Below are positions 1,860 to 53,184 of a DNA stretch of 64,000 nucleotides, in pieces. Position 1 is the stretch's first letter; every line of letters begins with the position of its first letter. The notes beneath the pieces are model-generated. The model was not told the origin of the DNA. It searched no databases and saw only the letters and a list, made by a program, of their open reading frames with translations. The stretch spans positions 62,001 to 126,000 of the IMG/VR virus record IMGVR_UViG_3300023174_000039; one strand, given 5' to 3'. Source of the DNA: a virus. The translations under genes were made by a program, and so were the position numbers.

Positions 1860-2578
1860 CTTTGTACAATCCAAAATTTGACTATAAGCCTATCCCACGA
1901 GTTGTGTTAGAAGGCAAACGTTTCTATGCCACCCCAGATGGACGAAACCTTCCTAGTGTAACTACTATACTTGACAAAACCAAAAGTCCAGACAAAATTG
2001 AAGCTCTTAATCGTTGGCGTCGAAGTGTAGGTGTAGAAAAAGCACAGCAGATTACCACTGAAGCGGCCAATCGTGGCACACGTATGCACACCTATCTTGA
2101 ACAGTATGTGCGTGACGGTGCTATCAAAGAACCAGGATCGAACCCTTATTCATGGCCCAGCCATGCCATGGCTCAGGTTGTTGTGGACAAAGGCCTAAAG
2201 AATGTCAGTGAGTTCTGGGGCATTGAAGTGCCCTTGTACTTTCCCGGCATCTATGCAGGCACAACAGATGGTGCAGGGATACACCTAGATGAACAAGCCA
2301 TTCTGGACTACAAGCAAACCAACAAGCCCAAAAAACGTGAATGGATCGAAGACTACTTTGTGCAGTTGTGTGCCTACGCAGAAGCACATAATGAATTGCA
2401 CGGCACAAACATACGCAAGGGCGTTATTCTCATGTGTGTAAAACCTGATCTTGACGAACAATTCAATATCATTAAACCCCCAGAATATCAGGAGTTTGTG
2501 CTAGAGGGTGCAGAGTTTGACCGATACAGAGATTTATGGTGGCGCAAGGTTGAACAGTATTATCTGCTAAATACGTGA
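1835..2578 (+). CDS. PD-(D/E)XK superfamily exonuclease
   Basis: A 247-residue nuclease-like protein. The middle carries the catalytic signature: GTTDGAG (metal-binding Asp) followed about a dozen residues later by ILDYKQTN (D-x-K), as in RecB-like and MGME1-like phage nucleases. An upstream RGTRMHTYLEQY helix corresponds to the G-x-x-x-H element of this group. There are too few cysteines for a Cas4/AddB-type Fe-S cluster. The start is uncertain: TTG 1835 overlaps iscA by 25 bases and TTG 1862 is an alternative just after the iscA stop. It probably acts in phage recombination or degradation of host DNA. Confidence 0.8.
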   Translation: MRRIFSSVTLYNPKFDYKPIPRVVLEGKRFYATPDGRNLPSVTTILDKTKSPDKIEALNRWRRSVGVEKAQQITTEAANRGTRMHTYLEQYVRDGAIKEPGSNPYSWPSHAMAQVVVDKGLKNVSEFWGIEVPLYFPGIYAGTTDGAGIHLDEQAILDYKQTNKPKKREWIEDYFVQLCAYAEAHNELHGTNIRKGVILMCVKPDLDEQFNIIKPPEYQEFVLEGAEFDRYRDLWWRKVEQYYLLNT

Positions 2579-2595
2579 TCAATTGAGGAATCATC

Positions 2596-4398
2596 GTGGC
2601 CATTTTACAAATATCTAGAATTACACAACGAAAAGGTCTTAAAACAGACTTACCTGAGCCATTGGCCTCAGCAGAACTAGGTTGGGCAGTTGATACCAGA
2701 CAACTTTACATCGGCAATGGAGAACTGGCCGAAGGTGCTCCTGCTGTGGGAAACACTGAGGTTTTAACAGAATTTTCTGATTTATTAAGCTACGTTACAG
2801 CCTATACCTATCAAGGCAATGCAGGTGGGTATACTGTGCAAACAGGTGCCACATCAGGTAGTCCGGTAACACAAAGTATTCAAAGTAGACTGGACAGTTA
2901 TGCTATTGTCACAGACTTTGGGGCCACCGGTGACGGTGTTACTGATGACACAGCGGCCATCAATCGAGCACTTTATCAATTGTACTGCCGACAGTCAAAT
3001 CCACAAGTACGCAGAAGTTTGTTTTTTCCTGCAGGAACTTATTTGGTAACCGACACAATATTGGTGCCGCCTTATGCAAAACTATATGGCGAAGGCGCTG
3101 ATTCCAGTATCATATACTTTGAAGTAAATGACTGGGTACCACTCACTGCGTATGCACAAGGAGTATTGGTTCGTTATAATGTGACCGGTAGTTATTATCG
3201 AGCATTGTCTAATGTGCCAGCAGAAGATCCGGCCAGTGCAGGAAGTTCTATTGCGCCAACCAACACTACATATTGGCAACTGAATCAGAGTTCAGTTATA
3301 CCGGGCAATTTGCCTGAGTATGTGGTTAGAACCGCAGATAGTCTACAACAAACAGGGGTAGACATTGGTACAAATGGTGCCACACCCCCGCAGAACGTTG
3401 AAATATCCAGCATGGGATTTGCCACAGCTAATTCTGCCAACGATAGCAGTAGCAGTCACAATATCTGTCTGATTGAAGATATTGATACCATGGCCATAAC
3501 TGATGTTAACTTTACTGGGCCTTTTACACTGGCAAACTCAAGCACTGCCAGTGATAACTTGTCTTGTGTGACATTTGCCAGTACAGGAAGTTTACCATGT
3601 ACACAAATCAACATGGATAGATGTAAATTTAACGGCGCAACATACGGTATACTTGCTGAGCAGGTCATCAATGGTTGCACAGTTAGTAATGGGTATTTTA
3701 ATGTATTGTATCAGGGAGTGGTACTAGATACCAACCCCACTGGTGTGAGAATTGTTGAAAATATTTTTGATAATATCTATCATGAAGGCATAGTGATCTC
3801 AGGTGCCACATTGAATGCATCTGCTTATAATATTTTCTATGATGTTGGCAACATATTCTTGGGTGTGGTTACTACACCAGTGATTGACATTGACACTGAC
3901 AACAATATCAGTATTGGTGACTTGTTTGAACGTAATACTGTTGAATCAACCAGTCATCCCCGAGTGGCGCTGAACAACACAGGATCTATTGTGTTGGGTA
4001 TGAACATTCGTGGAGTGAGTTATCAGACCAATGGTGTTGCTAATACCACTATTGCCAATCAAATGCAATTGGGTGAGTATACTCGCACCACAGGTGTAGC
4101 AGACGTACTGGCAGACAACTCATCTAAAAATTTGTTTGTGGTCAATACTGGATTGAGTGATCCTATTACTGCATTTAAAGTTGACTATACTATCACAAGG
4201 AATTCCGCATTTAGAAGTGGCACCATGAATATTGTGTCTGGCACTGCGTTTACCTATTCAGATGACTATGCAGAAAATTCATCAACCGGAATCACCATGA
4301 TAGCATCGCAGGCAGGTGGCAACGTGACAGTGTCTTACACTTCGACCAGCACTGGTACCGCCGGCGCAATTAAATATTCAATCACTCACTTATCTTGA
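2596..4398 (+). CDS. Tail spike/fibre with pectate-lyase-type beta-helix
   Basis: A 600-residue protein with GTG start preceded by GAGG. The first ~50 residues (RKGLKTDLPEPLASAELGWA and the following LYIGNG) form the short N-terminal segment found in many phage tail fibres. Around residues 105-125 the sequence DFGATGDGVTDDTAAI is the hallmark of the pectate_lyase_3 beta-helix fold. Long stretches of Asn/Thr/Val-rich repeats follow, consistent with a right-handed beta-helix. It probably binds or cleaves a surface polysaccharide of the host. The downstream gene overlaps its stop codon and may encode a partner. Confidence 0.85.
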   Translation: MAILQISRITQRKGLKTDLPEPLASAELGWAVDTRQLYIGNGELAEGAPAVGNTEVLTEFSDLLSYVTAYTYQGNAGGYTVQTGATSGSPVTQSIQSRLDSYAIVTDFGATGDGVTDDTAAINRALYQLYCRQSNPQVRRSLFFPAGTYLVTDTILVPPYAKLYGEGADSSIIYFEVNDWVPLTAYAQGVLVRYNVTGSYYRALSNVPAEDPASAGSSIAPTNTTYWQLNQSSVIPGNLPEYVVRTADSLQQTGVDIGTNGATPPQNVEISSMGFATANSANDSSSSHNICLIEDIDTMAITDVNFTGPFTLANSSTASDNLSCVTFASTGSLPCTQINMDRCKFNGATYGILAEQVINGCTVSNGYFNVLYQGVVLDTNPTGVRIVENIFDNIYHEGIVISGATLNASAYNIFYDVGNIFLGVVTTPVIDIDTDNNISIGDLFERNTVESTSHPRVALNNTGSIVLGMNIRGVSYQTNGVANTTIANQMQLGEYTRTTGVADVLADNSSKNLFVVNTGLSDPITAFKVDYTITRNSAFRSGTMNIVSGTAFTYSDDYAENSSTGITMIASQAGGNVTVSYTSTSTGTAGAIKYSITHLS

Positions 4399-4823
4399 TG
4401 TGGCCCAAGACTTTTGGCGAGAGACTCGCTGCCTGGACTGAACTTCGTCGCCGCTGTGAAACCGGAGATGTTGAGTCTGTGGTAAAAAACATCAACTTCT
4501 GGTGGTTTAGCACTCCATGGCAACCATATCATTTACATTGGGATGATCGAACAAATTGGCCCGATCCCTGGCAACTACTTGAAGATAACTTGTACTGCGG
4601 CCTTGCTCGCGGACTAGGAATCATGTATACTATAGCTATAGTTGACAGACCAGACCTGCAAGACGCAGTGCTTGTAGAGGTGGATAGCGACAATTTAGTC
4701 CTCGTGAGCCAAGGAAAATATATATTGAATTGGGACCGAGACACTGTCGTAAATATCAACCAGAGTCCCAAAAAGACTAGACATCAGATAACACAAAACC
4801 AAATAAAACTACAGATAAAGTAG
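4398..4823 (+). CDS. Conserved phage protein of unknown function
   Basis: A 141-residue protein starting at ATG 4398, which overlaps the tail spike's TGA; a TTG three bases earlier is less likely. The N-terminal half is Trp-rich (NFWWFSTPW, LHWDD). The C-terminal half has alternating hydrophobic residues suggesting a beta-sheet domain, and ends with a basic, Gln-rich tail. I know of no enzyme motif that it matches. Its coupling to the tail spike suggests a virion or assembly role, but its similarity to small proteins of T4-like phages gives no function. Confidence 0.7.
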   Translation: MWPKTFGERLAAWTELRRRCETGDVESVVKNINFWWFSTPWQPYHLHWDDRTNWPDPWQLLEDNLYCGLARGLGIMYTIAIVDRPDLQDAVLVEVDSDNLVLVSQGKYILNWDRDTVVNINQSPKKTRHQITQNQIKLQIK

Positions 4824-9478: not shown

Positions 9479-9745
9479 ATGCCAGCAGTACAGCGACAAG
9501 GTGATTCAGACACAGGCGGCGGGAAAATACTTTCAGGAGTAGGTTCAGTACGAACCAATGGAATCCCTACTGCCACAATCAACTTGGCTGTTAGTTGGCA
9601 TGGTAAACGAGCGCATTCAGCGGCAAAAACCACCACAGGTGTAAGCAGTGTACGAGTTGAAGGACAACCCATCAGTGTTGCCGGTAATCCCGACACCTGC
9701 GGACACTCTCGTACTGGTGGCAGTGGCGATGTGAGGGCAGGATAA
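9479..9745 (+). CDS. PAAR-repeat tail spike tip protein
   Basis: An 88-residue protein with the hallmarks of PAAR proteins: an N-terminal Pro/Ala segment followed by GD, short glycine-rich beta hairpins (VRTNGIP and VRVEGQPI), and conserved His and Cys residues (HGKRAHS and DTCGHS) that can hold the apical metal ion. It corresponds in role to T4 gp5.4, which caps the central spike and sharpens it for outer-membrane puncture. The next gene begins within its stop codon. Confidence 0.88.
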   Translation: MPAVQRQGDSDTGGGKILSGVGSVRTNGIPTATINLAVSWHGKRAHSAAKTTTGVSSVRVEGQPISVAGNPDTCGHSRTGGSGDVRAG

Positions 9746-11049
9746 TGGCAGGCGCAGGGTTTGGACAACCGGGCACATACACGCCATTGCAATTGATTGC
9801 CTGTGCCGGACTACTACAAAATCAAGGTATCAGTGTTCCTACCACATTGACTAATGCAGTGAGTTCTTACAACTCCTTGACCTTTGTTCAAGATCTAATG
9901 AGCACAATTTCTCTTGGACCTGGGTTTGGGTTGAATGCCGGAGTTATTGCAAGTTTAAAAACACTGGGCAATACTGCATGTCCTGCACTTGGTGCCAGTA
10001 TCCCTTCGGCTTATGCCGGAGTCAATCCTTTGATCCCTACAACACAGACTGGTGGGTTTGGTAACCTGGTTGCAGATAATGCCGCACTGTATCTTGGTAA
10101 TGGTGAAGTTGATCGTTTTTGTCAAGCATACCAAATTGTTGCAGGTTACCGTGGCACAGCGAACGAGCTGATACAAAGTGCTGTGAATGCTACCACATAT
10201 CTTGGACCCACATTTACCACAATGAATGATTTGATCACCGGTCAATTTACCAGTGTGAATTTGGCGTTAAAATGTCTAGGCAGGGACCTTGCACAATTAG
10301 GCAATGCAATCAATCTAGCCAGGCTAGATGATTTTGGTACACCAGCCGCTATGTTACAGCAATTGAGTGATGAGGCAAAAATCACAGCAGGTACATTGAG
10401 TTGTGTGGCATTAAAATTAGCAGAGTATGGATTGACTGAAAGCGATATTGTGTTGTTGTGTACACCTGGTGCAAGTACCAGAACCCCTTCAATGAATGAA
10501 TTCAACACTCTCCAGAAGAAAGCATATCAAGCAATGACCGCAATTGACTCGGACTGTTTGAGTTATGTGCTAGATGTTCTAGGGGTAGTAACTCCCAACA
10601 TTGGCACCATGGCTGACCTGTTGGATTTGAAAAAAATCTTGCCTGAAAGTTGGATTTCTCTCACTGTACAGTCAACAGCACCGCCAGCACCGCCTCCTAG
10701 TCCAGGATCACCACCAGCATCGGAGTTGACAACTAATCCATTAGCAAGCTCAATATTGATATTCAACACCGACGGTTCAGTAAACCCAGCTTTACAAACT
10801 TCACTGGAATTGACAGCATCGTCTTCGGCATCGGTATCACCATCGTCGTCAGCATCGTCGTCGGGACAACTCCCCCCAACATTTACCAACAGTCTAGCAA
10901 TTACCTTGCCAGGCGGCTGTGACGAATTGGCCAAAATAATACCTCCAGACCAAGCAATAGCAAACAAGGCATTTCAGGCAGGATTACAAAGTGTGGGCGG
11001 AATTTCCACTACCACTTTGCCTAGAGTGGCAACAGCACTGTTAGGATAA
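9745..11049 (+). CDS. Virion-like structural protein downstream of PAAR
   Basis: A 434-residue protein with no recognised domain. The first ~300 residues are Ala/Gly/Leu/Thr-rich, predicted mostly helical. Residues ~305-385 form a low-complexity linker rich in Pro and then Ser/Ala, with a polyserine run. The C-terminal ~50 residues return to ordered sequence. Position directly after the PAAR tip, with two more large genes in tandem, suggests a baseplate or spike component. There is no signal peptide or enzyme motif. Confidence 0.75.
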   Translation: MAGAGFGQPGTYTPLQLIACAGLLQNQGISVPTTLTNAVSSYNSLTFVQDLMSTISLGPGFGLNAGVIASLKTLGNTACPALGASIPSAYAGVNPLIPTTQTGGFGNLVADNAALYLGNGEVDRFCQAYQIVAGYRGTANELIQSAVNATTYLGPTFTTMNDLITGQFTSVNLALKCLGRDLAQLGNAINLARLDDFGTPAAMLQQLSDEAKITAGTLSCVALKLAEYGLTESDIVLLCTPGASTRTPSMNEFNTLQKKAYQAMTAIDSDCLSYVLDVLGVVTPNIGTMADLLDLKKILPESWISLTVQSTAPPAPPPSPGSPPASELTTNPLASSILIFNTDGSVNPALQTSLELTASSSASVSPSSSASSSGQLPPTFTNSLAITLPGGCDELAKIIPPDQAIANKAFQAGLQSVGGISTTTLPRVATALLG

Positions 11050-39377: not shown

Positions 39378-39686
39378 TCACACGCCTGTAAATGAATACG
39401 CAGAGCCACTGACAAACACGCCGCCTGTGATAGTGACTGTTTGACTTGGTGCATTTGTGCTGACCACTGTGGCACCTGGCAACCCAACCACAGTCCACCC
39501 GGCCTGGATATCATAATAACTTGGTGATGGAGTAGTTGCCCAACTGCCACCTTGAAAGAAGAATCCAACAGTGCCGTTGCTGCCTGCCACGTTCTGAAAA
39601 CTTTGTGTTGTTTGTCCGGCATAGTTGCCTGGACCGATAGTCCATCCGCCTTGAATTGACCATCCGGGTCCAATTGATACTGGCAT
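39378..39686 (-). CDS. Small glycine-rich tail adhesin
   Basis: 102 residues beginning MPVSIGPGWSIQGGWTIGPG, an N-terminus shared with the larger protein at 41225-42133 (IGPGW...GAWAIGD). The rest is Gly/Ser/Thr-rich beta sequence. Matching N-termini suggest both attach to the same virion site. An AAAGGAAA site precedes the ATG on the minus strand. It is the last gene of the long minus-strand operon. Confidence 0.75.
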   Translation of the reverse strand: MPVSIGPGWSIQGGWTIGPGNYAGQTTQSFQNVAGSNGTVGFFFQGGSWATTPSPSYYDIQAGWTVVGLPGATVVSTNAPSQTVTITGGVFVSGSAYSFTGV

Positions 39687-39756: not shown

Positions 39757-40443
39757 TTATGCTGATTTTTTAATTACCGCTTGAACAAGGCTGTCTATGC
39801 TGTTCACAATGGGCACACCTTGTTCACTAGCAATACCGATGCTTAGGGGCAATTCAGTACAGCCCAGCACAATAGCTTGAGCTCCATGTGTGATCAGGCT
39901 GTGAATCACCTGCATCAGCAATACCTGAGATTCCCCAATCTTGCCAGCCTTGATAAAGTCAATTGCAGGTTGTACAAAAAAGTCCATTTCAGCACGGTCA
40001 GGAACAATACATTTCCATCCCTGTTGCTCTAGTTTGTGTTGATAGATACCGTTGTCTATTGTGCCTTGTGTGCCCATGATGCCAATGGTGGTGTTGGCAA
40101 GTCCTAGTTCACGCAGTTGATCTGCTATGCTGTCCACTATGTGAGTGATGGGCACACCCATTTTTGCCATGTCATCATACCAATAGTGTGCAGAGTTGCA
40201 AGGGATCACAACATGATCACAGCCCACAGTTTTCAGTGCCTGTATGCCCTGCAACAACCACAGCATGGGTTGATTGTCACCGGCTTGCATGGCTCGGCTA
40301 CGGTCAGGTATTCTTGGCTCGTTCCACAACACAAAAGGTATGTGTTCTTGATCGGTTGTGGCAGGCGTTTGTTTTATGAGTCTAGTCACAAACTCTGCTG
40401 ATGCCGCAGGACCCATGCCACCTAGTATGCCCAATCGTTTCAT
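39757..40443 (-). CDS. Aspartate/glutamate racemase family protein
   Basis: 228 residues from ATG 40443. The family's two catalytic cysteines are present: VIPCNSAHYW and VLGCTELPLS. The N-terminal LGILGGMGPAAS and NEPRIPDRSRA are typical of the YgeA/aspartate-racemase group, which interconverts L- and D-amino acids without a cofactor. It is translationally coupled to the metal-dependent hydrolase gene and shares an operon with an amino-acid-binding protein and an acidic amino acid-type symporter. Confidence 0.92.
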   Translation of the reverse strand: MKRLGILGGMGPAASAEFVTRLIKQTPATTDQEHIPFVLWNEPRIPDRSRAMQAGDNQPMLWLLQGIQALKTVGCDHVVIPCNSAHYWYDDMAKMGVPITHIVDSIADQLRELGLANTTIGIMGTQGTIDNGIYQHKLEQQGWKCIVPDRAEMDFFVQPAIDFIKAGKIGESQVLLMQVIHSLITHGAQAIVLGCTELPLSIGIASEQGVPIVNSIDSLVQAVIKKSA

Positions 40444-41219
40444 ACTTTGCTGTGTTGCAACAACAACACAGTGTTGTTGTGTTGATTGGGATGAAAATCT
40501 CTGCGCATGAAGCTCAACCAAGGTCCGACCAACCCAGTCACAAATCCATTTTTCCAGTTGAACAACACAATCACAGCATCTTTTGCTGTGCGCCATTTCC
40601 ACAGTTGACGATCTGCACGTAGCAACACCAGGGTATTTCTGGCAATATCCCACACAAAGTTTGCAGTGGTCAACAGCATGCTGAGTCGCAGTTTACCGCC
40701 GCCAATGGCGTTGATAGTGTCCATGGCAACTGCTTTGTGTTCTATTTCTTCCACAGCATGCCAAGTCCACAACTGACGAAAGTGAGGATGCATGCTGTCC
40801 AACAGTTCAGGATGTGTCAACAAGTGTTCGGCAAAGATGGCAGTGATGTGCTCTAGACTCACTGTGCTGGCCAGTTGACCTTTTTTGCTGATTTTGGTTT
40901 TGATGTATTCTAGTTTGGCCAGTGCCAGTGCTTCCAAACGTTCAGCAGGCAAGCCTTGCTTGGTCAGCCAAAGATTGTATTGTTGGTGAGCATAACGATG
41001 CCAGTTTTCTTGTTTGACAAATGTGGCAATTGCTTGTTGTTGGTCAGCATCGGTGATTCTGTGTTGATAGTTTTTCACGCTGTCAATAAAGAAACGTTCA
41101 CCATGTGGGAATGTGATGCTCAAGGCATTTAAAAAATGTGTTTTGAACGCACTGTTATCAAAATAGTATTTTGGTAATTCCTGTGTCCAGTCTTGCTTTA
41201 GTGGTTGTTCTTTGAACAT
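40440..41219 (-). CDS. Predicted metal-dependent hydrolase (PF10118-like)
   Basis: 259 residues from ATG 41219. It contains the His/Glu pattern of PF10118: FVKQENWHRYAHQQYN, IFAEHLLT and WHAVEEIEHKAVAMD, consistent with a di-iron ferritin-like site. The family is of unknown activity. A hydrophobic helix follows near residues 175-200. The start lies five bases after the adhesin stop, and its end overlaps the racemase start. Confidence 0.82.
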   Translation of the reverse strand: MFKEQPLKQDWTQELPKYYFDNSAFKTHFLNALSITFPHGERFFIDSVKNYQHRITDADQQQAIATFVKQENWHRYAHQQYNLWLTKQGLPAERLEALALAKLEYIKTKISKKGQLASTVSLEHITAIFAEHLLTHPELLDSMHPHFRQLWTWHAVEEIEHKAVAMDTINAIGGGKLRLSMLLTTANFVWDIARNTLVLLRADRQLWKWRTAKDAVIVLFNWKNGFVTGLVGPWLSFMRRDFHPNQHNNTVLLLQHSKV

Positions 41220-41224
41220 ATTAG

Positions 41225-42133
41225 TTAGAAGGTAATTGATCCTGACCCCACAGTGGTCCACTTGTACACTCTATAGCCACCGGCAACTGTGACAGTTGGG
41301 CTACCAGTAGTGGCAGTTGCGGCTGCATATGAGTCTGGGTAACGAATGATCACGATACCTGATCCGCCACCTGCGCCAGACCCGTCGTTTCCCGGAGTCC
41401 CGCCGCCTGAGCCACCGCCGCCTCCACCAGTGTTTGGAGTTCCGGCAGTTGCAGTGGTTGCTCCTGTTGCTCCTGCACCACCGCCACCTGCACCACCAGA
41501 TCCAGCTGTACCACTGCCACCGCCACCAGCGTATCCACCGCCACCACCGCCACCTGCATAGGTTACAGATGTTCCAGATATTGAACTTGCTGTGCCTCCT
41601 CCACCATTTCCACCATTAGCTCCAGCATTGCCACCAACCGCACTGGCGCCGCCACCGCCACCAGCATGATAAGGAGGAGAAGTTGAACCTGATCCCCCGG
41701 AATTTCCTTGGCTTCCTGTCCCAGAACCACCCGATCCCGGCGCCGACACGCCGTACCCACCACCGCCACCAGATCCACCTGTTCCGCCGCCACTGGTACT
41801 ACTGGTATATGAATACGCACCGGCGCCACCACCAATAGATGTTATAGTGCTAAAAATAGAATCACCACCAGATGCACCTGCTTGTGTGCTTGAGTTTGGT
41901 GCGCCACCTGCGCCAACAGTGACCGTGATGGGTGTACCACTGGCTACTGCAAATCCTGTTGCGGTTCTAAATCCACCTGCACCCCCGCCCCCGCCATGTC
42001 GTGTACCACCTGCCCCGCCACCGCCAACCACAAGATATTCAACTGTGGGCGTAACTGACGGGCCACCACCTGTGGTATCGCCAATGGCCCATGCACCTGT
42101 AATTGCCCATCCGGGCCCGATTGTGAATCCCAT
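41225..42133 (-). CDS. Glycine-rich tail fibre adhesin
   Basis: 302 residues. After the shared IGPGW N-terminus (residues 1-25) comes a beta segment (VEYLVVGGGGAGG), then ~170 residues dominated by Gly, Ser, Ala and Thr, probably a polyglycine-II sandwich as in T4-like gp38-type adhesins. The C-terminus is SGIVIIRYP plus a final beta domain. It should set host receptor specificity. AAGGACA precedes the start. It sits, unusually, within an operon of metabolic genes. Confidence 0.86.
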   Translation of the reverse strand: MGFTIGPGWAITGAWAIGDTTGGGPSVTPTVEYLVVGGGGAGGTRHGGGGGAGGFRTATGFAVASGTPITVTVGAGGAPNSSTQAGASGGDSIFSTITSIGGGAGAYSYTSSTSGGGTGGSGGGGGYGVSAPGSGGSGTGSQGNSGGSGSTSPPYHAGGGGGASAVGGNAGANGGNGGGGTASSISGTSVTYAGGGGGGGYAGGGGSGTAGSGGAGGGGAGATGATTATAGTPNTGGGGGGSGGGTPGNDGSGAGGGSGIVIIRYPDSYAAATATTGSPTVTVAGGYRVYKWTTVGSGSITF

Positions 42134-42158
42134 GCTTGTGTCCTTATTAGACTCTTAT

Positions 42159-42761
42159 TTATTTTTTAAACAACAATGATGAAGCGATGACCAAGGCAGT
42201 CTGTGCAGCCTCTACGTCATCAGGCTGTTGTTTCCAACCCACGCTGATTTGTCCTATAAACACCCCGGGCTCGGCAGGCACACTGATACGGCACATGTAA
42301 TTCACACCGTTTTCTCTGTAGGCAAATCCAATTAGACTTTGTGGTTTGAGATAGGGACTGCACGGTATTTTACCAGACATGAGTCCAATCACATCATTGT
42401 TGTTGTCGTAGTTTTTGCTGAACAAGCCCACATCCAGGCCGTCGTACTGCTTGATTCTGCCACCATTGCGTGTGGACACAAACACAATTTTTCTTGTGTT
42501 TACCAGGGTATTGACCTCCATGATAGACACCAGTTCTACATCGGTGTTTTTCAACAAGAAATTGTAGGCTTCTTCATATCGGCCATTCATCTTGGGCAGG
42601 GCCTGTTGGGCACGATATGTGGCCATCATGGCATCTTTTTCGCTGTAAACAAACCAGCCCACAAAGCCCAGCACACACAGTAATATTACTGTGAATAATC
42701 TAAAAGGACTTTGCCCGATCCAGTTTAGTATTTCAAGCAGGGCTTCTTTGATCTTGTCCAT
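42159..42761 (-). CDS. Single-pass membrane protein with extracytoplasmic domain
   Basis: 200 residues from ATG 42761. One membrane helix (~residues 20-40, LFTVILLCVLGFVGWFVYS) is followed by a ~155-residue extracytoplasmic domain with two cysteines (IPCSPY, YMCRIS), which might form a disulfide. The start lies inside the end of the symporter gene, so translation is coupled. A sensor or transporter partner role is possible; no family is recognised. Confidence 0.75.
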   Translation of the reverse strand: MDKIKEALLEILNWIGQSPFRLFTVILLCVLGFVGWFVYSEKDAMMATYRAQQALPKMNGRYEEAYNFLLKNTDVELVSIMEVNTLVNTRKIVFVSTRNGGRIKQYDGLDVGLFSKNYDNNNDVIGLMSGKIPCSPYLKPQSLIGFAYRENGVNYMCRISVPAEPGVFIGQISVGWKQQPDDVEAAQTALVIASSLLFKK

Positions 42762-44022
42762 GTGCCTGTTCTTTGTCACAAACAAATGCTGTCACTGCTA
42801 CGTTACCATGCACATGACTTGCTGTGCGAATCATGTCCATCAGAGGATCAACTGCAATCAACAGTACCAACACAGCTTCGCTGGGCAGTTTCAACAAGTC
42901 ACAAACAACTGCTACAGTGGCCACTGTGAGAATACCTGTTGTACCTGCTGATGCAAGCCCTGCCAAGATACTACCAAATAGCACAACTAGTAATCCTGTT
43001 AAGCCTAGTGGTGCATCATAAATGTTGGCAATGAATACTGTGGCAATGGCATAGTAAACGATACTACCAATGCGATTAACAGTGAAGCTGAGTGGCACAG
43101 TTAGTTCAACGCCGCCCTTGTCAAAGTGTAGTTTGTGCAGGGCTTCTTGTGCGTATGGGATACAGGCCAAACTTGAGCGTGAACTCACAGCAACAATCAG
43201 TGTTTCTTTGGTTTCTCGGATCACGGTAGCAAGGCTTAGACCTGAACGTGCCCAGATCACAGCAGTACCTGCCGCAACAACCAACACCCCCCCAACAAAC
43301 TGCTGGAACACAAAGTCAAACATGGTCATGAAGATGCCCACACCAACCTTGCCAACCTGCGATGAAATCATGGCCAACAGCGCAATTGGCAAGAAATAGT
43401 TTAGGAACTTGAAGATGCTGATACTGGCCTGTTGAATACTCTTTAGCACTTCCACCAACATCTTTTGACCTTCTGTTTTCAGGTGCCCCAGTGCCACACC
43501 AAAGATCAAACAAAAGATCACAATCTTTAAGCTCTCACCATTGTTTAGTGTGTTGAAGATGTTTTCAGGAATGAACTTTTCTGCCATCTTGCCTGCATTG
43601 ACAGGTGGTGCAACAGGCATGGGCTCGTGTAAAGTGATATTCAAATCAGTACCACTGTCTTTGTTGTTGACCAGCACACCCAGTTGTGTTTTCTTCTCTG
43701 GTGTCATTTCTGTACCTGTGACCAGCACAGTGCCCACACCAATCACAGCGGCCAGGAACATACTGCCCACAAAGCCAATGATGATTTTGCGTATCAATTC
43801 TTGACTGCCTTCTTTCTGCAGTAGGCCAATGATACCCACCAGGATAGTGGCCAACAAGAATGGTAACACAACAACTTTGAGCAGGCTGATGTAGATGCTG
43901 CCAATGCTGTCAAGACCTGTGCTGAACTCTGGAGCATACACACCAGCTAGAATGCCCACAATGATTGAACCAAGTATGGTCCAGGGGCTGATCAAAAATG
44001 TTTTTAAATGTGCAGTTGTCAT
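42733..44022 (-). CDS. Dicarboxylate/amino acid:cation symporter (DAACS/SDF family)
   Basis: 429 residues, full length for GltP/DctA-type carriers, with eight membrane segments and two re-entrant loops. The serine-rich hairpin is VSSRSSLACIP. The last segment has D-x3-D-x2-RT (DPLMDMIRT), keeping the Arg that binds the substrate carboxylate in GltPh. The usual NMDGT is NRIGS and the later Asn of N-V-x-G-D is His, so cation sites look altered. It follows the amino-acid-binding protein gene by nine bases. Confidence 0.9.
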   Translation of the reverse strand: MTTAHLKTFLISPWTILGSIIVGILAGVYAPEFSTGLDSIGSIYISLLKVVVLPFLLATILVGIIGLLQKEGSQELIRKIIIGFVGSMFLAAVIGVGTVLVTGTEMTPEKKTQLGVLVNNKDSGTDLNITLHEPMPVAPPVNAGKMAEKFIPENIFNTLNNGESLKIVIFCLIFGVALGHLKTEGQKMLVEVLKSIQQASISIFKFLNYFLPIALLAMISSQVGKVGVGIFMTMFDFVFQQFVGGVLVVAAGTAVIWARSGLSLATVIRETKETLIVAVSSRSSLACIPYAQEALHKLHFDKGGVELTVPLSFTVNRIGSIVYYAIATVFIANIYDAPLGLTGLLVVLFGSILAGLASAGTTGILTVATVAVVCDLLKLPSEAVLVLLIAVDPLMDMIRTASHVHGNVAVTAFVCDKEQAHGQDQRSPA

Positions 44023-44031
44023 GGGGTGTCC

Positions 44032-44850
44032 TTATTTCTTTTCAGCTTTGTAGCGATCCATCAACTTCTTGGTGTCGATGTTGTTGTATTCATTTTTAAT
44101 CACGTAGTTGACCACGCTCAACAGTTGAATAGCCCGGGGATTCACTGCCACAGCAATGTTGTCTACACTGTCAGAGATGGTGATTGACTTGGTAGTAATT
44201 GCCGCATCTGGCTTTTCAAATGCAATTTTCTTGATTTCAAATTCATCACGGTAAGCGGCAGCGATGTCGCCACGTGTGACTTTGTCAATGATCACATCCC
44301 ACTTGTCTTCAGGCAGGAATTGTGCATTGGGAAAGTTAATTCTAGCAAATGTGTCATAACTGGAGTTGCGGATAAAACTTATCTTGCCGTTGAATTCTCT
44401 AATCACTTGATACACTTCTCTGCCCTGAGTATTCTGGCTCAACCATAGTCGATTCACAACTAAACTTTGGCGCAGTTTGATATAGGGATCACTGAATCTA
44501 ACTACTTGTAACCGTGGACCAGTTACGGATAGTTTACTAACAGCAATATCTGCTCTGCCATCTCTGACCTGTTCTACAACTTCTGCGAAGCTTTCTGCGT
44601 CTCGTCTAAACTGTACAGGAACTCCAAGTAACACCCCAATGCGTCGAGCGATCTCAACGTCAAGGCCGTGTATGGTATCCTCGTCTCCGGAAAAGAATGG
44701 AGGATTGTCTTTTTTGGTCATTGCCACCACAAGCACATTGGCTTTTTTGATTGCGGCAATATCTGCGGGTAGTGGTACAGTTGATGTTGGTAACTGTGCA
44801 GAAGCAACAGTGGCCAACACAAGTAATACGGTGGCGAATAGTTTTTTCAT
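44032..44850 (-). CDS. Periplasmic amino-acid-binding protein (SBP_bac_3)
   Basis: 272 residues from ATG 44850. Signal peptide KKLFATVLLVLATVASA, then the family-3 solute-binding fold: PPFFSGDEDTIHGLDVEIARRIG, the carboxylate-binding RRDAESFAEVVEQVRDGRADIAVSKLSVT, and FSDPYIKL. Such proteins normally serve ABC importers for polar amino acids. No ABC subunits follow, only the symporter. It is the first gene of the minus-strand operon. Confidence 0.9.
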   Translation of the reverse strand: MKKLFATVLLVLATVASAQLPTSTVPLPADIAAIKKANVLVVAMTKKDNPPFFSGDEDTIHGLDVEIARRIGVLLGVPVQFRRDAESFAEVVEQVRDGRADIAVSKLSVTGPRLQVVRFSDPYIKLRQSLVVNRLWLSQNTQGREVYQVIREFNGKISFIRNSSYDTFARINFPNAQFLPEDKWDVIIDKVTRGDIAAAYRDEFEIKKIAFEKPDAAITTKSITISDSVDNIAVAVNPRAIQLLSVVNYVIKNEYNNIDTKKLMDRYKAEKK

Positions 44851-45359: not shown

Positions 45360-45635
45360 ATGTTTACATTAGACGCAACAATCGACGCCGTTCAAACCGG
45401 TAAAAAACAATTTGTCAAGACATTTGTGCAAAACGAAAAAATTGCCGACGCAATGAACACTTTCATTGATGAGCAAGCCGCTTACACAAAGAAAGCTGCC
45501 AAAGTTGGCACAGACACATTTGCCACTTTGACCAGCGAAATGGTCAAAGCTTCACAAGAAGCCATGAAGTTTGACTACACCAAGTTTGGTGAAGGTATCA
45601 TGAAGGCCTACTCTGCTACTACTTCTAAAAAGTAA
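45360..45635 (+). CDS. Phasin-like small helical protein
   Basis: 91 residues, predicted fully helical and amphipathic, with Lys/Ala/Phe/Thr patterns (YTKKAAKVGTDTFATLTSEMV, then KFDYTKFGEGIMKAY) like those of phasins, which coat polyhydroxyalkanoate granules and can act as chaperones. It is shorter than typical phasins, so the link is tentative. It stands alone between a promoter at 45269 and a terminator hairpin at 45669. Confidence 0.7.
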   Translation: MFTLDATIDAVQTGKKQFVKTFVQNEKIADAMNTFIDEQAAYTKKAAKVGTDTFATLTSEMVKASQEAMKFDYTKFGEGIMKAYSATTSKK

Positions 45636-48069: not shown

Positions 48070-48081
48070 CATTTGTACATT

Positions 48082-48654
48082 ATGGCACTAGATACTACCA
48101 CAACCGAAAACTCTCACAGTCAAGACCTAGCCGATAACGGCATGTATGTTTTCATGGGCGAAGTAGACAATGAAAGCATCCGACCCATTATTGAATGGAT
48201 CTTGCACGAAAACTTTGTTGTAAAGAAAAAGCGCAAAGAACTCCTGCTGATGATCTGTAGTGAGGGTGGCGATATGAGTGCCGCCTTTGCCTTAATAGAT
48301 GTGATGAAGAGTTCCAACATCTTTATTAAAACCGTGGGCCTGGGGCAAATTGCATCAGCAGGCCTGTTGATCTTTCTAGCAGGATCACCGGGACGCAGAA
48401 CACTCACACCTAATACTTCAATCATGAGTCATCAATATGCCTGGGGCAGTGACGGAAAACATCATGAGTTGTTGGCTACCATTAGAGAATTTGAACTCAC
48501 GCAACGTCGCATGGTTCAGCATTACATAACCTGTACAGGATTGAGTGAAGAAGATATCAAGCAACACCTGTTGCCACCACATGATGTTTACTTGAGTGCC
48601 GAAGATGCCCTGAGACTAGGCATCTGTGATCATATCAGCCAGCTGGCTCGTTAA
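48082..48654 (+). CDS. ClpP-like serine protease, divergent paralogue
   Basis: 190 residues from ATG 48082. The catalytic triad of the ClpP family is present: Ser in GQIASAG, His in MSHQYAWG and Asp in PHDVYLSAEDA. The N-terminal region that contacts ClpX and the GGDMSAAFALID oligomerisation region differ from canonical ClpP. It may form mixed rings with the ClpP encoded at 50320 or work alone. It ends in a shared TTAA with the converging gene. Confidence 0.9.
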   Translation: MALDTTTTENSHSQDLADNGMYVFMGEVDNESIRPIIEWILHENFVVKKKRKELLLMICSEGGDMSAAFALIDVMKSSNIFIKTVGLGQIASAGLLIFLAGSPGRRTLTPNTSIMSHQYAWGSDGKHHELLATIREFELTQRRMVQHYITCTGLSEEDIKQHLLPPHDVYLSAEDALRLGICDHISQLAR

Positions 48655-50319: not shown

Positions 50320-50943
50320 ATGCCCAGTTTGATCCCAATGGTTGTAGAACAAACCTCAAAAGGCGAGCGCAGTTACGACATTTACAGTCGGCTGCTTCGA
50401 GACCGTGTCATCATGTTGGACACCGAAGTAAGCGAACACATAGCCAGTTTGATTGTGAGTCAATTGTTGTACCTTGAAAGTGAAGACCCTGACAAGGATA
50501 TTTCGCTATATATAAACAGTCCCGGCGGTAGTGTCACTGCTGGACTTGCAATCTACGATACCATGCAGTTTATCAAACCAGACGTTCATACCATTGTTAT
50601 AGGACAAGCTGCCAGCATGGGCAGTTTCTTGGCACAAGCAGGTGCACCGGGCAAGCGTTTTGTGCTGCCTGAAAGTCGCACCATGATTCACCGTGTGAGT
50701 TCAGGTACTCCCAGCACACGTGGCTCAATCCATGTGCAGGAACTGGAGTTTGAAGATGCTCGCAGAATGTTTGAAGAATCAAAACGCATCAACCAACGTC
50801 TTACTGAATTGTATGTCAAACACAACACAGCAGGCAAAACCTATGAAGAACTGTACGAGGCCATGAAGTTTGACACCTTCTTGAGCGCCGAGCAAGCAGT
50901 GGCATATGGACTTGCTGACAAAATTGTAACCAAACGAGTCTAA
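50320..50943 (+). CDS. clpP: ClpP, canonical proteolytic subunit
   Basis: 207 residues, exactly the common length. It has the ClpP N-terminal loop sequence ([23 protein letters not shown]), [19 protein letters not shown], the catalytic Ser in GQAASMG, His in MIHRVSS and Asp in [10 protein letters not shown]. It should assemble into a tetradecamer and degrade proteins fed by ClpX. The last codon overlaps the next gene's ATG. The second ClpP-like gene lies 1.7 kb upstream. Confidence 0.96.
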
Positions 50944-52106
50944 TGTTTTTTTCAATCACACACCACCCTGACACAAATTTTTCACATCAATGGCACAGCC
51001 CATCTCTAGTTGTCAACACTGACGCAGGATGGAATCATGTTGTGATTGATGATCAAATGGTGGTGTACAAAGGTTATGCTGAATCGGGTGTGTTGATTGA
51101 TCTGTTGCCACAAATACTGCAACAGTCTGAGCCAATGATGTTGGGCAATTTTTGTGCAATTGTGATTGGTAAAGATACATTAAAAATCAAAACAGACAGG
51201 TATCGTAGTTTTCCAATCTGGGTCAATGCCGGCAAAGAAATTACCAATTTGCAGGCATTGTCTCACACTGTGTGGACTGACATATACATTGAGTCAGATT
51301 TGGATCTAAACATTGTTCAGCACAAGTTCAATGTGATTGGCAAAATTGACACCACCCCAATTTCTGAATCAGATGCCTTGGAGCAGATAGATCAAATATT
51401 GCTGACTCGCACTGCTGACTTTGTCAAGTACAACACTCTGCCCATACGTTCTTTTCTAACAGGCGGGGTTGATTCGTTGCTGGTGTACAGTTATCTTGTG
51501 AGAGTCGGTGCACCAGTTGAAGTAATAGATTACTTGCATATTGACTATGATCACTTTTGGAAATCAAACTCTCATTATCTAAAAAAGTTCTGGGGGTACA
51601 GTCAGATACATCACTGGAACGACCCCACAGTTCTTGCCAGCGGCGCACCTGGTGATGAGTTTATGTTGCGCAGTCCCACAACTGCGTCAATGTATTTGCA
51701 GTTTCACCAATTGAACATGACGGATCTGTTGGAGGCCAATCCCACCTGTTTGCATTACTCGTATTTTAATCAAGCCAAAAATCTTGATGCCATACGACGA
51801 CCTTATGCTGTGACACGTCCGCAACAAATGGCCTGGGATATATGCAACATCCTGGTGAATGATTGGCAGCACTGGCACATTGGCAATACTTTGACCTGGA
51901 CCTTGTTGCGTGACATTGAAGTACTAAAACTATTGCTTAGAGTACCGGTAGAATCTGCTGTTGGTCAGATTCTCAACAGTGATCTTTCAAACCAGCTGAC
52001 TGAACGTAATCTTCCAGGGTCAACTGTTTGGATCAGTGACCAAAAGAACACAGGTGCTATGCGGAAAAATCTAACACGCCCGCTAAAAATTCGCAATGAT
52101 CTTTGA
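50943..52106 (+). CDS. Asparagine-synthase-like protein
   Basis: 387 residues. The C-terminal half has the PP-loop ATPase motif SFLTGGVDSLL, which activates a carboxylate by adenylation, followed by GAPGDEFMLR. The N-terminal ~150 residues keep the fold of a glutaminase domain, but the chain begins MFFS rather than with Cys at position 2, so glutamine hydrolysis is probably lost and ammonia or another amine may be used. Phage asparagine-synthase homologues occur in aquatic T4-like phages. It overlaps the converging radical SAM gene by 50 bases. Confidence 0.85.
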   Translation: MFFSITHHPDTNFSHQWHSPSLVVNTDAGWNHVVIDDQMVVYKGYAESGVLIDLLPQILQQSEPMMLGNFCAIVIGKDTLKIKTDRYRSFPIWVNAGKEITNLQALSHTVWTDIYIESDLDLNIVQHKFNVIGKIDTTPISESDALEQIDQILLTRTADFVKYNTLPIRSFLTGGVDSLLVYSYLVRVGAPVEVIDYLHIDYDHFWKSNSHYLKKFWGYSQIHHWNDPTVLASGAPGDEFMLRSPTTASMYLQFHQLNMTDLLEANPTCLHYSYFNQAKNLDAIRRPYAVTRPQQMAWDICNILVNDWQHWHIGNTLTWTLLRDIEVLKLLLRVPVESAVGQILNSDLSNQLTERNLPGSTVWISDQKNTGAMRKNLTRPLKIRNDL

Positions 52107-53184
52107 CAGACACATGTTTTACTTGATCCATCCGGCTCACAAATTCCGTTAGCGTCTGATGACTTGGCTGGTCCCACGGGTATGTTTTTAAATTTGCAAT
52201 GATGGACCGTAATGCATTGATAGCATTGCTTTTTTGATCTGGCAGTATATCAGCCTTTAAAAGTTGTACACATGCTTGATACAGTTTTTGAATCACTACA
52301 TCTCTTTGAGCAACAGGCACAACACCTTCCAACAGGTGCGGCGCCCCTGGACTGCCAAACGTTACCACACTGGGCCAATTCTGCGCCAACAGCTCTATCA
52401 CTTGATCCAGATGATAATAGTTGTAGATTGAAGTTGTGATGTTTACCCGCAAACTTATCTTGGGATTGGCTCTTGCTTGTTCAAAGTTTTTCAACACCAC
52501 AGGCCAGTTGGTGCCAAATCTCACATACTCTGCTGCCTTGCCCACAGCGTCAATGCTGAACACCATGGTGATCTTGCCGGCATAACTTTCTACCCATGCC
52601 CAATCCACTGTGCTGCCATTGGTAAACATTGTGATATTGCTGTGTAGGTTTGCATGTGCCCAGGCCAGAAACTGTTTGCAATTGGGATCATAAAACGGTT
52701 CTCCACCCAACAACACCACGTCCCGTATGCGGTCAGCAATGGGCAACAAAAAATCAAAGTTGTCTATTCGAGTGCTGTTGATAGATTTTATATCGATCAA
52801 TCCGGCCTGTGCATGATGCTGGCTCACACGGCTACTGGCTTCGGGCCAACAAGTTTGACAGCTGAAGTTGCACACATTGCCTGGGCGTATCTCCAGGGTA
52901 ATATCGTCATTGGCATAGTGAGCATAGGCATGTTCGCCACCCAGCCGAGTGCTGTCGTTGCGTTGCTGAAGTTCTCTACGCTCACAACGAGTGCAGGCCG
53001 CGGGCCACACACCATTGGCCAACTGCTGTTCAAATGGGATATTTTGTTGATGCCAAGTTGTCAGATTTACTTGACTGATGTGATTTTGGGTTGAGTAATT
53101 GGAATCCTGCTGCCATTCGCAACAGGGTTTGACCACATGGTCATAACTGATAGCCAGGCCATGCTTTAGAAATTTACATTGCAT
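52057..53184 (-). CDS. Twitch-domain radical SAM protein
   Basis: 375 residues. The radical SAM motif CNFSCQTC (CX3CX2C) is near residue 106, with a GGEPFYDP motif. An N-terminal ~90 residues with Cys residues (MQCKFL, KPCCEW, ACTRCERR) precede the barrel, as in twitch-type proteins that are common in aquatic phages. The substrate is unknown. Its 3' end overlaps the asparagine-synthase-like gene by 50 bases, so both may belong to one mobile pair. Confidence 0.85.
   Translation of the reverse strand: MQCKFLKHGLAISYDHVVKPCCEWQQDSNYSTQNHISQVNLTTWHQQNIPFEQQLANGVWPAACTRCERRELQQRNDSTRLGGEHAYAHYANDDITLEIRPGNVCNFSCQTCWPEASSRVSQHHAQAGLIDIKSINSTRIDNFDFLLPIADRIRDVVLLGGEPFYDPNCKQFLAWAHANLHSNITMFTNGSTVDWAWVESYAGKITMVFSIDAVGKAAEYVRFGTNWPVVLKNFEQARANPKISLRVNITTSIYNYYHLDQVIELLAQNWPSVVTFGSPGAPHLLEGVVPVAQRDVVIQKLYQACVQLLKADILPDQKSNAINALRSIIANLKTYPWDQPSHQTLTEFVSRMDQVKHVSVKDHCEFLAGVLDFSA

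Follow-up and report, generated by a model that had tools for sequence, protein, structure and literature searches.

We analysed a 64,000-nucleotide stretch of viral DNA (hereafter the window), corresponding to positions 62001-126000 of the IMG/VR virus record IMGVR_UViG_3300023174_000039 (331,654 bp), and describe a minus-strand gene group that encodes a family-3 solute-binding protein (SBP), a carrier of the DAACS/SDF family, a membrane protein (MP) with predicted similarity to the holin T of phage T4, and an Asp/Glu racemase. The contig is regarded as viral because it belongs to a virus record of this length and because the window carries large-phage gene families, namely ribonucleotide reductase, DNA ligase, tail-fibre and head-maturation-protease genes. 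A preliminary description of this DNA had placed an operon here, and all genes that it named were found at that place by domain or family matches.

Gene organisation of the locus

All genes of the group lie on the minus strand. The SBP gene (SBP_bac_3; 44032..44850, 272 aa) opens the conserved module and matches PF00497 (E 1.6e-17; 64 bits vs a cut-off of 26.4). It is followed by the DAACS/SDF carrier (42733..44022, 429 aa; PF00375, E 2e-65), in which the sodium-site residues are replaced, and by MP (42159..42761, 200 aa), whose assignment draws on a match to phrog_31287, an AF2 model, Foldseek, profile-profile comparison and the adjacency of an endolysin in a related locus, L294. Two insertions come next, a Gly-rich protein with an IGPGW N-terminus (41225..42133; PF21722) and a predicted metal-dependent hydrolase (Metal_hydrol; 40440..41219; PF10118, E 6e-74), and the racemase (Asp_Glu_race; 39757..40443, 228 aa; PF01177, E 2e-40; TIGR00035) closes the module. 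Gene starts were chosen by homologues (SBP 44850, carrier 44022, MP 42761, Gly-rich protein 42133, hydrolase 41219, racemase 40443); the racemase open reading frame begins at 40653, and its start was set at 40443, homologues beginning MKRLGILGGMGP. SBP and carrier are separated by 9 bp, carrier and MP overlap by 29 bp, and hydrolase and racemase by 4 bp, so that the genes are spaced like a single operon.

A four-gene module conserved in viral relatives

When IMG/VR was scanned with single proteins, the SBP hit 63 loci, the carrier 37, MP 43 and the racemase 5. The racemase was missed by the single-sequence scan because it diverges more; it was recovered by an alignment-based scan, and tblastn over the fetched loci indicated that it adjoins the other three genes nearly everywhere. 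Restricting the count to distinct MP sequences flanked by no less than 2.6 kb upstream and 3 kb downstream left 36 loci, which are mutually related and do not represent 36 independent events. The order SBP-carrier-MP-racemase occurs in 29 of these, SBP-carrier-MP without racemase in 4/36 and MP alone in 3/36, so the first three genes are found together in 33/36 distinct loci. Over the phage loci, the median carrier/MP overlap is 17 bp, and the median gaps are 14 bp between SBP and carrier and 58 bp between MP and racemase. Flanking genes vary in identity and orientation from one relative to the next while the four module genes stay together, a grouping far beyond chance. Comparison of the window with one relative (L002) gave dN/dS values of about 0.06 for the SBP, 0.04 for the carrier and 0.08 for the racemase, indicating strong purifying selection where dS was measurable; MP evolves faster (about 0.13, against L015). 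The preliminary claim that SBP, DAACS carrier and racemase belong together, which invited a search for their co-occurrence in phages, is thus borne out by the IMG/VR relatives, in nearly all of which they co-occur, as well as by the bacterial operons described below.

Two whole-module copies lie about 200 kb apart on one viral contig (L051 and L054; IMGVR_UViG_3300027749_002876, 524,565 bp), reflecting either a real duplication or a joined assembly. A tblastn search of INPHARED with SBP, carrier and racemase found no cultured phage with the module; the matches were bacterial contigs filed as phage or unannotated fragments. As several INPHARED records are bacterial contigs and a trap for co-occurrence searches, these matches (Salmonella and Acinetobacter MD-2021a contigs) were considered unfit for the purpose, and co-occurrence was judged in IMG/VR. 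One such record, L328 (MT837652.1), is a contig of 6.5 kb from human faeces listed as phage, in which an SDF carrier gene comes directly after a racemase gene (2372-4533).

Inserted and neighbouring genes

The PF10118 hydrolase had no match in any other locus compared, and the Gly-rich protein was matched in relatives only at a different place. By these comparisons, both genes are insertions between MP and racemase, and we rejected them as members of the pathway; the preliminary description had listed them as operon partners, the Gly-rich protein under the label adhesin, which nothing beyond the Gly-rich domain backs. An IGPGW gene also stands between MP and racemase in L020, and the MP-racemase junction therefore looks like an insertion site. 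Within the window, the proteins at 39378-39686 and 41225-42133 have the IGPGW N-terminus in common.

A small protein encoded at 45360-45635, whose match to phasins (PF09361, E 0.014) falls below the threshold, is kept near the module in some relatives and is a possible hint at a host that stores polyhydroxyalkanoates. Further genes nearby include two head-maturation-protease/ClpP-like genes (48073-48654 and 50320-50943) and a radical SAM gene (52057-53184).

The membrane protein resembles T4 holin T in predicted fold and profile

MP belongs to no Pfam family. Its AF2 model (pLDDT 85.5) comprises a short N-terminal helix, one transmembrane (TM) helix and a periplasmic GAF-like domain, which is the layout of class III holins, where one TM helix precedes a T-like periplasmic domain. 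Foldseek searches with the model returned GAF domains and the T4 holin T in its complex with RI; T had the highest target-normalised TM-score among the matches listed (0.68), with generic GAF domains scoring about equally. Among viral models, MP matched proteins annotated as class III holin, holin or T holin. Against a profile of seven T-type holins, the MP profile aligned over 162 columns with a probability of 90% (pairwise E 1.7e-6). This relation is visible only with the T-holin profile: comparison of the single sequences of MP and T4 T showed none (probability 1.6%), and a PDB sequence search with the MP profile found nothing. Cys134 and Cys157 of MP are invariant.

Genomic context also connects MP with lysis. 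L294 has neither SBP nor carrier at the locus, and its MP gene ends 14 bp before an endolysin gene (phrog_181, 9e-77), with a spanin-like gene upstream of the pair. A relative of this endolysin lies 2.3-7.4 kb from the module in 16/41 entries, most entries being listed twice. The window's own genome contains one such MP; the endolysin of this genome shares 85% identity with the L294 enzyme and is located about 65 kb away, next to a protein closely resembling the L294 protein that matches the holin family phrog_3427. Profile and fold comparisons thus argue for a distant homology between MP and T4 holin T and for a T-like role of MP in lysis, in which it could be a second holin or a regulator and not the only holin. 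In calling it a membrane protein, the preliminary description was right about its single TM helix but missed its likely holin kinship, and hence the tie of the module to lysis. In some phages a second T-like MP copy, 29-30% identical, follows the racemase (L072, 11051-11608; L073, 4280-4837).

An amino-acid-binding protein paired with a carrier that lacks canonical sodium ligands

The SBP has a signal peptide and no lipobox Cys and appears soluble. Its AF2 model (pLDDT 88) matches amino-acid SBPs, and Arg113 and Asp202, which by analogy with GlnH would be the pair that binds the alpha-amino acid, are invariant in the phage members. By sequence and predicted fold, it is a standard amino-acid SBP.

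The carrier covers 384/387 positions of the SDF domain (221.6 bits vs a cut-off of 27.9). We aligned 19 phage members and numbered the residues after GltPh by alignment. The substrate residues Asp394, Arg397 and Thr398 are invariant in all 19, Asp390 is also kept, and the RSS motif of HP1 is preserved. At other positions the phage carriers depart from sodium-coupled transporters of the GltPh type: NMDGT is replaced by NRIGS (once NRLGS), Asn401 by His and Asp405 by Asn, an Arg occupies the position of Met311, and Asp312 is missing. Outgroup SDF proteins have NMDGT (in one case NQNGT) and Asp405. Bacterial carriers, both the first ones of sets linked to type VI secretion systems (T6SS) and stand-alone ones, likewise have Arg at the Met311 position; the G657 row was disregarded in the carrier tree. 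In GltPh, the positions of Met311, Asp312, Asn401 and Asp405 bind sodium. In CaiT, a sodium-independent exchanger of another family, an Arg stands in for sodium. Because the sodium-ligand positions are replaced, we infer that the phage carrier may perform sodium-independent transport or exchange.

The racemase groups with those of bacterial modules

In a 34-row alignment of the racemase, Cys82 and Cys195 (both catalytic), Arg48 and Lys165 are invariant, and the nearest solved structures are the aspartate racemases 3s7z (Salmonella) and 1jfl (P. horikoshii). The protein also scores 221.5 bits with the cysteate racemase CuyB model NF052483 (cut-off 190). The NCBIfam name would suggest cysteate as substrate, yet the model is unspecific: a Salmonella enzyme with the annotation aspartate racemase also matches it (228 bits).

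A tree, which left out a Salmonella racemase equally close by score, unites the phage racemases with those of the bacterial modules and separates both from the few others sampled (99/99), though with warnings about long branches. Within this common group they form two separate sets. Transfer of the module as one unit from T6SS bacteria found no support for the racemase: a clade of phage and T6SS-linked sequences without the stand-alone ones was rejected (p 4e-5). In a Salmonella contig (L327, 2238-3741), a racemase annotated as aspartate racemase adjoins an annotated T6SS Hcp1-family effector, near an isoaspartyl dipeptidase.

Bacterial counterparts in type VI secretion clusters and stand-alone operons

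A genome scan revealed a 66% identical SBP-carrier pair in an uncultured Burkholderiales metagenome-assembled genome, and further sets were found by searching the Burkholderiales and the phylum. The set is rare, being present in 4/399 Burkholderiales genomes at E 1e-60. In 5/5 Burkholderiales genomes found (G001, G057, G059, G316, G339), an SBP-carrier set lies within a T6SS cluster containing VgrG, a DUF4280 PAAR-like protein, and ClpV, TssK, DotU, TssM or TssG. All five have a second carrier gene, and in G059, G316 and G339 the racemase directly follows the carrier. We found no description of this cluster type, with SBP, SDF carrier or carriers and often a racemase built in between VgrG/DUF4280 and TssK/DotU (L147, L148, L149, L158, L159). 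In L149, a mechanosensitive-channel protein with a cyclic-nucleotide-binding domain (9546-11015) comes after the carriers.

Four further Pseudomonadota genomes (G454, G657, G887, G1008) harbour stand-alone SBP-carrier-racemase operons. In G454 (L322), AnmK is encoded two genes upstream; in G657 (L323), MurQ-like, GlcNAc-kinase-like, MurA-like and RpiR genes precede the operon and a glutamine-synthetase-family gene follows it. The combination is therefore not peculiar to phages, the same three genes forming bacterial operons. The pairing of the SBP and carrier genes is constant in phages and bacteria. The holin-like gene is in none of the bacterial sets; SBP, carrier and racemase therefore constitute a set of their own, within which the lysis gene lies in phages.

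Discussion

We consider it about an even chance that the module as a whole provides SBP-fed amino-acid transport and racemisation for salvage during the lysis phase, co-expressed with a T4-T-like lysis protein. The SBP would catch an alpha-amino acid in the periplasm, probably Glu, Asp or a close analogue, and may dock on the DAACS carrier to hand it over; the carrier, devoid of sodium ligands, would act as a sodium-independent uniporter or exchanger. In the cytoplasm, the racemase would interconvert D and L forms and could feed the L-Glu or L-Asp pools. Expression is presumed to be late, in the lysis phase, when amino acids freed by cell and wall breakdown might be salvaged, D-Glu from peptidoglycan being the best single candidate. 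The full gene order in 29/36 loci, the carrier/MP overlap, the bacterial operons, the conserved carrier and racemase residues, purifying selection and the peptidoglycan-recycling genes near 2/4 stand-alone operons are all in line with this proposal. Several observations weigh against it. The racemase is absent from four phage loci and, in G057 and G001, from the vicinity of the carrier; the other two of the four stand-alone operons lack wall-recycling neighbours, so that a universal peptidoglycan-recycling context was rejected; and a transport role leaves the lysis gene inside the cassette unexplained. As to the substrate, the Asp/Glu specificity that the preliminary description assigned to all three proteins agrees with Asp394, Arg397 and Thr398 of the phage carrier, but some bacterial SBP-linked carriers lose Asp394 or Arg397, and the ligands of the SBPs with the closest solved structures include Arg, Cys, Trp and Gln besides Glu.

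Other explanations have to be considered. The genes might be a plain nutrient cassette, acquired from bacteria to feed virion production, with the lysis gene as a chance neighbour; the 66% identical Burkholderiales pair and the separability of the holin-like gene would agree with this, yet in 33/36 loci that gene lies within the cassette and overlaps the carrier, while the flanks differ, and we regard the idea as unlikely, albeit the least so among the alternatives. The least probable of them is wall editing, in which D-amino acids made by the racemase would be exported by the carrier and, once in the peptidoglycan, would protect the cell with the module, be it the infected host or a T6SS bacterium, against wall hydrolases. 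An SBP is normally a component of import, and no T6SS was found within the fetched DNA around the stand-alone operons, which speaks against such editing, even though SBP-carrier sets do occur in T6SS clusters (three with racemase), sodium-free motifs would suit an exchanger, and peptidoglycan editing as immunity in bacterial warfare has a precedent by title (Le et al. 2020, Sci Adv eabb5614).

The position of MP raises the further option of a lysis-timing sensor. In this view the SBP, with or without the help of the carrier, would inform the T-like periplasmic domain of amino acid outside the cell, which signals that neighbours are lysing, and so serve as a ligand-dependent antiholin comparable with RI acting on T. 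MP is similar to T4 T, and RI is directed at the periplasmic domain of T (PMC11413866); MP also appears to be co-translated with the carrier, and SBP and holin-like domain would share the periplasm. Against this stand the bacterial SBP-carrier-racemase operons without a holin-like gene, from which it follows that the first partner of the SBP is the carrier, and the occurrence of the holin-like gene alone; a sensor thus seems improbable, ranking just behind the nutrient cassette. Slightly more doubtful still is its extension to the whole module, according to which an amino-acid signal sets lysis timing: the SBP-fed, sodium-independent carrier and the racemase would read or shape the outside D/L acidic pool from lysing cells and hold or trigger the co-translated T-like holin, the sensing half deriving from a bacterial system that also works beside type VI secretion.

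Returning to salvage in the lysis phase, we hypothesise that phage lysis, type VI killing and wall recycling have one thing in common, namely that cells and walls are broken down. The presence of the SBP-carrier pair in T6SS clusters, frequently accompanied by a racemase, suggests a need common to lytic phages and neighbour-killing bacteria, the handling of amino acids from broken cells or walls. A phage operon conserved across many environmental phages would thereby unite nutrient capture, D/L-amino-acid chemistry and a putative lysis protein. Each family is known; searches of the open-access literature covering the module, racemases of T6SS, foraging and D-Asp operons yielded no description of the combination, and its bacterial form in T6SS clusters as well as the SBP-linked branch of the DAACS family lacking sodium ligands likewise appear undescribed there. 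This branch of the glutamate-transporter family can be compared with the well-understood GltPh mechanism.

Comparison with known systems

Like the class III holin T of T4, MP has one TM helix and a periplasmic GAF-like domain in its model, and resembles it in length, profile and fold; unlike T, this putative holin belongs to a transport operon in most relatives and has a second holin candidate at the endolysin locus. The phage carriers share with GltPh, GltTk, GltP and DctA the full-length SDF family, the HP1 RSS motif and the TM8 residues Asp390, Asp394, Arg397 and Thr398, and differ from them by the SBP gene directly upstream, about 25% identity to the canonical members, NRIGS for NMDGT, His401 and Asn405. 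The TRAP family pairs a soluble SBP with a secondary carrier; the pairing is similar here, but a family-3 SBP is combined with an SDF carrier, whose dependence on the SBP is putative. The positions of both catalytic Cys, Arg48 and Lys165 are shared with the aspartate racemases of PF01177 (1jfl, 3s7z), whereas the phage enzyme is encoded in an operon for transport and presumed lysis. Finally, A. baumannii reportedly uses peptidoglycan-editing immunity in type VI bacterial warfare, with the racemase RacK. The likeness lies in a racemase tied to the T6SS; RacK is said to be of a different racemase family, and the system described here adds an SBP and a carrier and extends to phages.

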